Under the pieces are notes generated by a model that saw only the letters and a list, made by a program, of their open reading frames with translations, had not been told where the DNA came from and ran no database searches. A DNA stretch of 34,879 nucleotides from Chloroflexota bacterium. GTDB taxonomy: Bacteria > Chloroflexota > Dormibacteria > CF-121. Shown here piece after piece: positions 25,667-28,680 of the stretch (within the stretch, counting starts at the first letter, position 1; each line of letters opens with the position of its first letter). The stretch covers positions 1 to 34,879 of the forward strand of contig VBJI01000012.1 of assembly GCA_005880875.1 (NCBI GenBank), read 5' to 3'. Both the position numbers and the translations under genes were made by a program.

Positions 25667-26152
25667 CTACTCGATCAGGTATTTGACCATCCTCATCCGC
25701 ATACTGCCCGTCTGATCGTCGACCTGGTAGCGGAGTTCATCGACGAACAGCCGGATCATGTTCAAACCAATCGTTTCATAATCGAGTTCGGCCTCGCGCC
25801 GGGTGCGGCGCACGGCCTGCTGCTCGACCGCCCGCGGTGGGACGCTGCGGACCTCGACTTCGATCCGTCGCGGCTGACTCTTGAAGATCAATTTCAGTTG
25901 CCCGTTGCCGCTGCCCCACTGTTGAGCGGCGGCCGCGCAGGCGCTCTCGCAGGCTTGCGTTATCGCGATGTTGAGGTCGTCGATCTCCTGCAGGGAGAAT
26001 CCGACGACCAGGCCGAGTGACGCCGCGGCGCGTTTGGCAACGACGATGTAGTCGCTGACCGCCGGCAGCTTGAGCTCGGTGATGTAAGCGCTGGCGCTGG
26101 TCGTCTCATGGCGACTGCCTGGCGGTTGATGGCGAAGTCGACTCTCCCTCAT
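25667..26152 (-). CDS. RsbW-like anti-sigma factor (HATPase)
   Basis: LKLPAVSDYIVVAKRAAASLG...EIDDLNIAITQACESA N-box-like motif; directly upstream of a SigB/F-type sigma factor. Confidence 0.78.
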   Translation of the reverse strand: MRESRLRHQPPGSRHETTSASAYITELKLPAVSDYIVVAKRAAASLGLVVGFSLQEIDDLNIAITQACESACAAAAQQWGSGNGQLKLIFKSQPRRIEVEVRSVPPRAVEQQAVRRTRREAELDYETIGLNMIRLFVDELRYQVDDQTGSMRMRMVKYLIE

Positions 26153-26163
26153 GATTCCTCCCG

Positions 26164-26493
26164 CTATTTGCCCGTCCGCGGTTGCCGGCGGCGACCGAGC
26201 CCGCCGAGCAGGTCACGCACCCGGTCGCGCCAGCCTGTGATGGCGGCGCCGGTCGCGGTCATCGCCCGGTCGGCCGCCGTGAACTTGTCGTTGCCCCCGG
26301 CGACCATGTCATCAACCTGCTGCAGGCTGTGCCGCAGCTCCGGGAGGGCCAGGCGTGCTTCGTCGAGCGTCAGCGTCAAGATGGCTTCGATGGTTCGAAG
26401 GCTGCGCGTCATGTTGAGCAGGATGAAGGAGGCGAAGAGACTGAGAACCAGGAATCCGATCCCGACCAAAAGCACGCCGACCTGCCAGACCAA
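26164..26493 (-). CDS. DUF948-like membrane protein
   Basis: N-terminal TM LLVGIGFLVLSLFASFILLNMTRSLRTIEAILTLTLDEARLALPELRHSLQQVDDMV. Confidence 0.6.
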   Translation of the reverse strand: MVWQVGVLLVGIGFLVLSLFASFILLNMTRSLRTIEAILTLTLDEARLALPELRHSLQQVDDMVAGGNDKFTAADRAMTATGAAITGWRDRVRDLLGGLGRRRQPRTGK

Positions 26494-26570: not shown

Positions 26571-26843
26571 CTACGCCGGCTGCTCCCGTCTGACCCACCG
26601 GGTTCCGGCCCACTGCAGGACCGCAAGCACCGCCAGGTCGTTGACCGGGTGCAGCTCGCCGATCGTCAACCGGGCGCCGACGCCGGCCAAGCCGGCGGCC
26701 TCACCAACCAGGACGGCCAGGGCGCTCAGCGCCAGGCGGACCAGGTAGTGCGGCGCCCTGGGGGCCACGACGTAGGCCAATTGCGTGCCCAGCAGGATGA
26801 CGAGCGTGGCCAGCACGAAGACCGGCGGGACGGGCACAGGCAA
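26571..26843 (-). CDS. Small hypothetical membrane protein
   Basis: 90 aa, hydrophobic segments PVFVLATLVILLGTQLAYVV and YLVRLALSALAVLVGEAAGLAG. Confidence 0.5.
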   Translation of the reverse strand: MPVPVPPVFVLATLVILLGTQLAYVVAPRAPHYLVRLALSALAVLVGEAAGLAGVGARLTIGELHPVNDLAVLAVLQWAGTRWVRREQPA

Positions 26844-26886: not shown

Positions 26887-26916
26887 GAGAGGCCCGGCCG
26901 CCTGGCCGGACCTCTC
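26887..26916 (-). terminator. Hairpin terminator downstream of the secreted-protein gene
   Basis: gagaggcccggcc-gcct-ggccggacctctc near-perfect inverted repeat between convergently placed gene ends. Confidence 0.65.
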
Positions 26917-26949: not shown

Positions 26950-27732
26950 CTAGTGCGACTTGTGGTTGGTCTTATCAGCGTTGTTCGCGTGCGGGTTCGT
27001 ATTGACGGTCGTGCCGGGCTGCAGAGGCTGCCACTTCCACGCCTGGCTGTTCTGCGCGGCCGGCGTGATGCACGAATTGCCGGGGCGGTTGCAGCTGGCT
27101 TGCGGAGCTACCGGGTCGATCGTCAGGCCGGCGAGGTCGATCTGCAGGGCACCCCAGGTGTTGTTGTCGTTCAGGGTGACGCTGGTGACGGTCTTGCTGG
27201 GCAGCGCGATGGTCAGCATGTCGATGACGGCCGTTCCGCCACCCATGCCCGGCTGGGCGCTACCGGTCCAGACGTTCGCCGCCGCGGGATCGGAGAGCGT
27301 GTTGACGGTGAAGCCGGCGCCGGTCCGCCACTCGCGGATGTTGCCGCCGACCGTGAGGTCGGTGCTCTGGGTCGTCCCATCGCTGAAGGTAAACGTGACG
27401 TTGCCGACGACGGCACCCTCATACCACCAGTAGGTGTTGTAGGTGTTCAGCAGCAGGAAGGCGCTGGTCGCGCCCGCCCACGAGCCGCTGAAGGTCGCGC
27501 TCTGGCCATTGCCGAGGGTGAGCAGATTCCCTCCACTCAGGTCAAACGTATGGCCGCCCAGGCTCGCGCTGCCCGTCGGGGCCGACACGTAGAGCGTGCT
27601 GAGCGGGACGGTCGCTTGGGCACCGAGGGCTACCGGCGCGTCTTGGGCGAAGCCCATGATGCTCGAGGCGGCGAGGAAACCGGACGCGAGAATGAGACCT
27701 TTCGCTGGCTTGGTGAAGATGGCGGCGTTCAT
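26950..27732 (-). CDS. Secreted protein of unknown function
   Basis: Signal peptide MNAAIFTKPAKGLILASGFLAASSIMGFAQDA; 260 aa beta-rich, GTTQSTDLTVGGNIREWRTG. Confidence 0.8.
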   Translation of the reverse strand: MNAAIFTKPAKGLILASGFLAASSIMGFAQDAPVALGAQATVPLSTLYVSAPTGSASLGGHTFDLSGGNLLTLGNGQSATFSGSWAGATSAFLLLNTYNTYWWYEGAVVGNVTFTFSDGTTQSTDLTVGGNIREWRTGAGFTVNTLSDPAAANVWTGSAQPGMGGGTAVIDMLTIALPSKTVTSVTLNDNNTWGALQIDLAGLTIDPVAPQASCNRPGNSCITPAAQNSQAWKWQPLQPGTTVNTNPHANNADKTNHKSH

Positions 27733-27734
27733 GT

Positions 27735-27763
27735 CGCCTACTGTAAGTTCGGTACCTTACGCG
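27735..27763 (-). promoter_or_regulatory. Conserved upstream element copy A (CGTAAGGTACCGAACTTACAGTAGGC)
   Basis: Near-identical to the block at 28605-28632; contains a TACAGT -10-like hexamer 7 nt before the ATG and the inverted repeat GTAAG-N8-CTTAC. Confidence 0.6.
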
Positions 27764-27865
27764 CTTGGTGGCGTGCACCCCGGCGGAGGTAACGGGGTGG
27801 CAAAACCGGCGTGACGCTTTTCAGCCGGAATCTTTTCGGGCTGCGCTAAGGCTTCCCCGGAACGC

Positions 27866-27893
27866 GAAAGACCCGGCGACGGCCGGGTCTTTC
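27866..27893 (-). terminator. Hairpin terminator
   Basis: Perfect 12-bp stem gaaagacccggc / gccgggtctttc with 4-nt loop, downstream of the 27919-28602 gene. Confidence 0.75.
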
Positions 27894-27918
27894 CTTGTTC
27901 CAGTTCCCCCTGCTCCAG

Positions 27919-28602
27919 CTAGGTGCGGTCGCTCGCCTGACGGGTGTCTGCCGTCTGGCCGTCTTCGCGCTCGGCGCCGTTCGCTTTCCCCTCGCTGGAA
28001 GGCATGACGCCCGGCTTGGGCGCCTTCGTCTCATCAGCGTCTTCCCGCTTGGCTGGCGGGTTGACCTTCTTGACGTCGTCGTTGTCGCCGTGAGCTCCGT
28101 GGACGAACGCGAAGCTGGTCCTGGTGCCCTTGACGCTGAAGGAGGCGTCCGCACCGGGATTGCCCGCAAGTCCCGACGAGGCGGTACCGGAGAGGGCGCC
28201 AGTCGTCGCGTCGACCGTCCCACTCAGCTTGATCGCGTATCCGGCGAACAGGTTGTTGTAGGTGCTCAGATACGTCAGCGACGCGGCATGCTTGGCAGGG
28301 CCGAGCGCCAGGCTCCCGGTCAGGTCTTCGGTGATCTGCGGGTAGCCAACCTGCGCGCCGGTTCCTTTAAGGCCGCCTCGTACGTCGATGCTGAAGCTGT
28401 AGTTATGGGCATAGCCGACGCCCATCGCGCATCCGGGGCCACCAGTGCAGGTGTACATAACCGCGTAGGTGGCAGTCGCCATGACGGGGGCGGGAGCGGT
28501 TGGCGCTGGGGCGGCTGCCACCGCAAGGTTTGCGGTTGCGAGGAAGCCCCCAGCGGTCAGCGCGAGGGTCTTGGCGGATTTCGCAATGATGGCGGCGTTC
28601 AT
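27919..28602 (-). CDS. Secreted protein of unknown function with charged low-complexity tail
   Basis: Signal peptide MNAAIIAKSAKTLALTAGGFLATANLAVAAAP; C-terminal tail KREDADETKAPKPG... Confidence 0.75.
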   Translation of the reverse strand: MNAAIIAKSAKTLALTAGGFLATANLAVAAAPAPTAPAPVMATATYAVMYTCTGGPGCAMGVGYAHNYSFSIDVRGGLKGTGAQVGYPQITEDLTGSLALGPAKHAASLTYLSTYNNLFAGYAIKLSGTVDATTGALSGTASSGLAGNPGADASFSVKGTRTSFAFVHGAHGDNDDVKKVNPPAKREDADETKAPKPGVMPSSEGKANGAEREDGQTADTRQASDRT

Positions 28603-28604
28603 GC

Positions 28605-28632
28605 TGCCTAATGTAAATTCCGTACCTTACGT
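28605..28632 (-). promoter_or_regulatory. Conserved upstream element copy B (CGTAAGGTACGGAATTTACATTAGGC)
   Basis: Same spacing to ATG and near-identical sequence to copy A at 27735-27763. Confidence 0.6.
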
Positions 28633-28680
28633 CGCTGATGGCGCCCCGTTATTCAATCCGTAACGGTTTGCGAATAATTC

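Follow-up and report, generated by a model that had tools for sequence, protein, structure and literature searches.

Two adjacent secreted-protein genes of a Chloroflexota bacterium share a conserved promoter and start region that probably dates from a tandem duplication

Why do two neighbouring genes for dissimilar secreted proteins begin with nearly the same promoter and start-codon block? The question is raised by a stretch of 34,879 nucleotides from a Chloroflexota bacterium (contig VBJI01000012.1, positions 1 to 34,879; hereafter "the window", meaning the whole stretch that was analysed), in which the two genes, here P1 and P2, lie next to aspS. The source genome is a MAG assembly of 2.53 Mb in 250 contigs that is 75% complete. 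The features of the locus are as follows:

26950 to 27732, minus strand: P1, secreted-protein gene of 260 aa; open reading frame, family-wide ortholog
27919 to 28602, minus strand: P2, chimeric secreted-protein gene of 227 aa, with a P1-type start and signal peptide and an unrelated mature domain
27740 to 27745, minus strand: predicted -10 box of P1 (TACAGT), with its end 7 nt from the ATG
28610 to 28615, minus strand: predicted -10 box of P2 (TACATT), with its end 7 nt from the ATG
27752 to 27760, minus strand: GTAAGGTAC, the invariant spacer element ahead of P1
28622 to 28630, minus strand: GTAAGGTAC, the invariant spacer element ahead of P2
28681 to 30453, minus strand: aspS (aspartyl-tRNA synthetase), conserved upstream neighbour
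27867 to 27892, minus strand: terminator-like hairpin AAAGACCCGGC..GCCGGGTCTTT after P2, read directly from the sequence
26887 to 26916, minus strand: terminator-like hairpin GAGAGGTCCGGCC..GGCCGGGCCTCTC after P1, read directly from the sequence

Both blocks are present as originally predicted, with GTAAGGTACCGAACTTACA at 27742-27760 (minus strand, ATG at 27732) ahead of P1 and GTAAGGTACGGAATTTACA at 28612-28630 (minus strand, ATG at 28602) ahead of P2, and the 43-base blocks are identical at 38 of 43 positions, leaving five differences. When the comparison is extended to 53 bases, 43 positions agree between the P2 and P1 blocks, compared with 27 at the next best site on either strand of the window, and the likeness is therefore not a matter of chance. 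Identity between the two genes is limited to about -40 to +20 around the ATG, with background level beyond both limits. The prediction was also correct in that the mature proteins are dissimilar, being unrelated, and in that the TACAGT and TACATT hexamers stop precisely 7 nt short of the ATG of P1 and P2, respectively.

We consider one joint reading of these and the following results probable. The shared block would be the conserved promoter and start region of the P1 family, which is confined to a single family of soil Chloroflexi. RNA polymerase would use a TANNNT -10 box that ends 6-7 nt from the ATG and thereby produce a leaderless mRNA, and GTAAGGTAC, whose distance to the -10 box is fixed, would be contacted by a regulator or a non-standard recognition factor. 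In some species the P1 gene was duplicated in tandem behind aspS, and comparison with relatives shows that in the source genome the upstream copy kept its promoter and signal-peptide start and exchanged its mature part for the domain of another secreted family, giving rise to P2. As they have the promoter and signal-peptide start in common, P1 and P2 would probably be co-expressed and both exported.

Promoter elements and the case for leaderless transcription

The promoter comparison comprised 20 sequences, namely 19 P1-type genes from four genera and P2. GTAAGGT(A/G)C occurs in all 20, with GTAAGGT invariant and followed by A or G and then C, as does a TANNNT box, in which TA and the final T are invariant and the three middle bases vary. 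The end of TANNNT lies 7 nt from the ATG in 18/20 promoters and 6 nt in 2/20, and the gap between GTAAGGTAC and TANNNT is constant in 20/20 even where the distance to the ATG shifts; because this gap stays fixed when the ATG spacing changes, the two elements can be regarded as parts of one promoter. Within the genus, identity amounts to 0.99 at -30 to -21 and 0.83-0.88 between this segment and the ATG, and drops to 0.36-0.58 upstream of -40 and 0.36-0.45 beyond -80. The P1-type promoters have no clear -35 box. Located in the -35/-10 spacer, GTAAGGTAC is the real constrained element and probably the contact site of a regulator. Most likely its partner would be a regulator or a non-standard promoter-recognition factor such as a special sigma factor, which would also explain why GTAAGGTAC is conserved more strongly than the -10 box itself. 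The more far-reaching proposal that an undescribed factor or regulator acts at GTAAGGTAC with the P1 locus as its only target, and that promoter and signal-peptide end form a natural cassette open to refitting, appears unlikely to us.

The spacing of the hexamers had originally been interpreted as that expected for a leaderless transcript, and this interpretation gained support from position statistics. Genes were predicted in about 0.9 Mb of the source genome, giving 587 ATG starts, each defined as the first ATG of its open frame rather than curated. TANNNT with its first T at -16 to -12 was found in 76 cases compared with 13.2 expected, an approximately six-fold excess, and the peak stops abruptly at -11. 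Out-of-frame positions give the same peak, which is thus not caused by in-frame stop codons. Control hexamers without motif overlap remained near background, and the overlapping controls T...AT, TA..T. and TA....T rose about 2-2.6-fold. A Shine-Dalgarno site precedes two of the 76 TANNNT genes compared with 89 of the 511 others; ahead of P1 and P2 there is no AGGAGG-type Shine-Dalgarno sequence, only AGTAGG or ATTAGG at 4 nt from the ATG. Both the TANNNT peak and the near-absence of Shine-Dalgarno sites agree with the signature described for leaderless genes (PMC3160421; PMC3898074), the first of these studies reporting 4-5.7% leaderless genes in four of 12 Chloroflexi genomes and the second being a start-site map of M. 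tuberculosis. For the source genome, the position peak suggests that roughly 10% of the ATG-start genes may be leaderless. All 20 promoters of the P1 family and P2 have the TANNNT box at the leaderless spacing of 6-7 nt, and a leaderless transcript from P1-type promoters is likely, judging from the position statistics together with this conservation.

In several respects, P1-type promoters resemble the TANNNT-type leaderless genes described earlier (PMC3160421; PMC3898074), namely in that TANNNT is located some 12 bp ahead of the start codon, in that its middle positions vary in a genome of high GC content and in that both a Shine-Dalgarno sequence and a clear -35 consensus are lacking. They differ from them in the addition of an invariant 9-bp spacer element. 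The analysis thus offers comparative evidence that leaderless transcription may be common in a soil Chloroflexi lineage which, in the records found, is known from metagenome bins.

A transcript that starts further upstream, with the block acting as a leader element that controls translation through a short hairpin or an unusual ribosome site, strikes us as rather improbable. A second TANNNT (TAAGGT) does sit inside the invariant element and, if it were the real -10 box, could yield a leader of about 15 nt. Moreover, fourfold sites in codons 1-20 of P1 (27673-27732) have a within-genus identity of 0.74-0.80 compared with 0.55-0.64 elsewhere in the gene, which is also in line with constraint on a leaderless start, other causes being possible as well. 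On the other hand, the pairs of the possible hairpin show no compensatory changes, AGTAGG lies only 4 nt from the ATG, nearer than is normal for a ribosome site, and the ATG spacing varies by one whereas that between GTAAGGTAC and TANNNT does not, as in a promoter.

An inverted repeat overlapping the -10 box

The block had further been proposed to contain an operator in the form of the imperfect inverted repeat GTAAG-N8-CTTAC. One part of this proposal holds, since GTAAGGTAC is very strongly constrained, but the repeat as such is not. A symmetric operator of a dimeric repressor covering the -10 box would fit a repeat that is a perfect 5-bp one in P1 and in 8/20 promoters overall and that overlaps the -10 box, a usual location for a repressor. 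In P2, however, the right arm reads TTTAC and matches at 4/5 positions. The left arm is invariant in 20/20 promoters, whereas the right-arm positions outside the -10 box are paired in 14/20 and 13/20 and their changes are never compensated. In addition, the inner positions 6 and 8 of the repeat are almost never symmetric, and those right-arm bases that are conserved are the bases of the TANNNT box. With arms neither both conserved nor co-varying, the dimeric repressor operator was rejected as quite unlikely, and we favour an asymmetric spacer element plus -10 box, as suggested by the pattern of conservation across the 20 promoters.

MerR-like regulators bind the spacer between the -35 and -10 elements. 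The P1-type promoters are comparable to the targets of such spacer-binding regulators in having a conserved spacer site at a fixed distance from the -10 box, but are unlike them in lacking a conserved dyad. No MerR-type gene was found among the adjacent genes scanned.

Copies of the block and gene order in relatives

The original prediction had regarded the block as a mobile or recurrent expression-plus-secretion cassette driving different cargo, and the source genome was scanned for the block. Within this 75% complete assembly there is no third copy; both copies are those of P1 and P2. Variants of the motif with two mismatches numbered 11 beyond the two true copies compared with 47 for a control pattern, and being rarer than the control they were treated as chance matches. 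A search of 60 related genomes that allowed up to three mismatches gave matches in 12 of the 14 same-genus genomes and in one other genome of the family, and every one of them precedes a P1-family gene. P1 itself was found in 14/14 same-genus genomes and in 3/3 other family members sampled; where the motif was not matched, in two genomes of the genus, the 5' end is missing from the P1 match. One P1-type gene without the block is the upstream copy in G015. The relatives are soil Chloroflexi MAGs, their soil origin being presumed.

Wherever the DNA reaches, the gene order hisS-aspS-P1 (one or two copies)-orf-DUF948-HATPase is constant across the family, and this fixed locus, together with matches confined to P1-family genes, argues for vertical inheritance rather than mobility. 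A cassette spread to different cargo is therefore very improbable: it can draw on two neighbouring genes that have the block and different mature domains, and on one real replacement of cargo in P2, but it would call for several copies with different cargo, and only two adjacent ones exist, in a fixed housekeeping neighbourhood. To judge from the sequences, the start region shared by P1 and P2 stems from an old tandem duplication and represents gene remodelling rather than a mobile cassette.

After P1, the minus strand carries a 90-aa frame (26571-26843), a DUF948-like gene (26164-26493) and an RsbW-like HATPase_c_2 gene (25667-26152), and this arrangement recurs in the family members examined. 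The adjoining position of an anti-sigma-like kinase (RsbW-like) and a conserved promoter is suggestive.

The P1 and P2 proteins and the origin of P2

The predicted signal peptide of P1 spans approximately residues 1-30. Read by eye, the N-termini of both P1 and P2 appear to have a positively charged start, a hydrophobic core and small residues before the cleavage site, on the basis of which both proteins are presumably exported. Neither protein could be assigned to a usable family in Pfam or NCBIfam, P1 having only a sub-threshold match to a MiiA motif, and no relatives of P1 or P2 with solved structures were found by sequence. AlphaFold2 applied to a seven-sequence P1 alignment resulted in a mean pLDDT of 38.8, which makes the model unusable beyond an all-beta tendency; the mature part of P1 is thus probably all beta. 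At the C-terminus of P1 (approximately 27000-27095), CxRPGNSCxTPAAxNSQAxKW is kept in most members of the genus within an otherwise variable tail. P1 can be described as a family-specific conserved, predicted exported protein with an unusually constrained promoter.

For P2, the closest relative by the P1 locus (G005) was informative, as it has two P1 genes, a and b, after aspS. Colinearity between the window and G005, at 84%, extends from aspS over the intergenic DNA and the promoter into the first codons of copy a. According to the blastn break points, homology to G005 then breaks inside P2 and resumes about 110 bp before P1, which delimits one further feature:

approximately 27843 to 28571, minus strand: replaced cargo, without homology to the tandem P1a of G005 and of G001, from blastn break points

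The 5' part of P2 is colinear with aspS-P1a at the same locus in both G005 and G001, and its region from -75 to -30 reaches a score of 34/45 against G005 copy a compared with at most 13 against any other. The mature part of P2 is about 43% identical to the product of an unlinked gene at C192 in the same genome, a gene that has a different signal peptide, a different upstream region and no motif, and that sits between leuB-like and threonine-synthase-like frames (named by eye). Because its 5' part is orthologous to G005 copy a and its mature part is C192-like, P2 is best interpreted as tandem copy a after replacement of its cargo, the promoter and signal-peptide end having been re-used once. 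The originally proposed driving of different cargo accordingly holds for exactly one event, P2. The C192 paralog appears too diverged to be the direct donor. It is a second member of the P2 mature-domain family (L141, G000:C192, 7797-8297) and was not found outside the source genome in the collections searched. With this paralog as query, no homologs of the P2 mature domain were detected in 110 genomes of the class, nor were any found in 400 genomes of the phylum, plasmids or viral contigs.

P2 is absent from every relative and known from one MAG contig of a 250-contig assembly, but an assembly artefact joining two loci is highly improbable, as the frame is open across the junction, about 43% identity means that it is not the C192 locus that was misjoined, and the orthologous P1 promoter continues directly after P2.

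Read as cargo replacement in a tandem copy, P2 would be a clean case of a new exported product in which promoter and signal peptide were retained and the rest was swapped. As in other cases of tandem duplication with capture of a 5' end, the promoter and signal-peptide codons of the duplicate were kept and the downstream coding part was replaced in frame; P2 is unlike other 5'-end captures in the position of the swap, at the boundary of signal peptide and mature domain, and in having been observed in one genome only. No paper emerged from a literature search for chimeric genes that carry signal peptides.

The start block of P2 (ATGAACGCCGCCATC) resembles that of P1b rather than P1a, so that the two copies may later have undergone conversion; the promoter grouping has modest support in the tree (0.65). 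Another genome, G010, has its own tandem P1 pair (L035 / G010:C84, 77238-79190), whose members group together in the protein tree, and duplication at the P1 locus thus seems to have occurred more than once.
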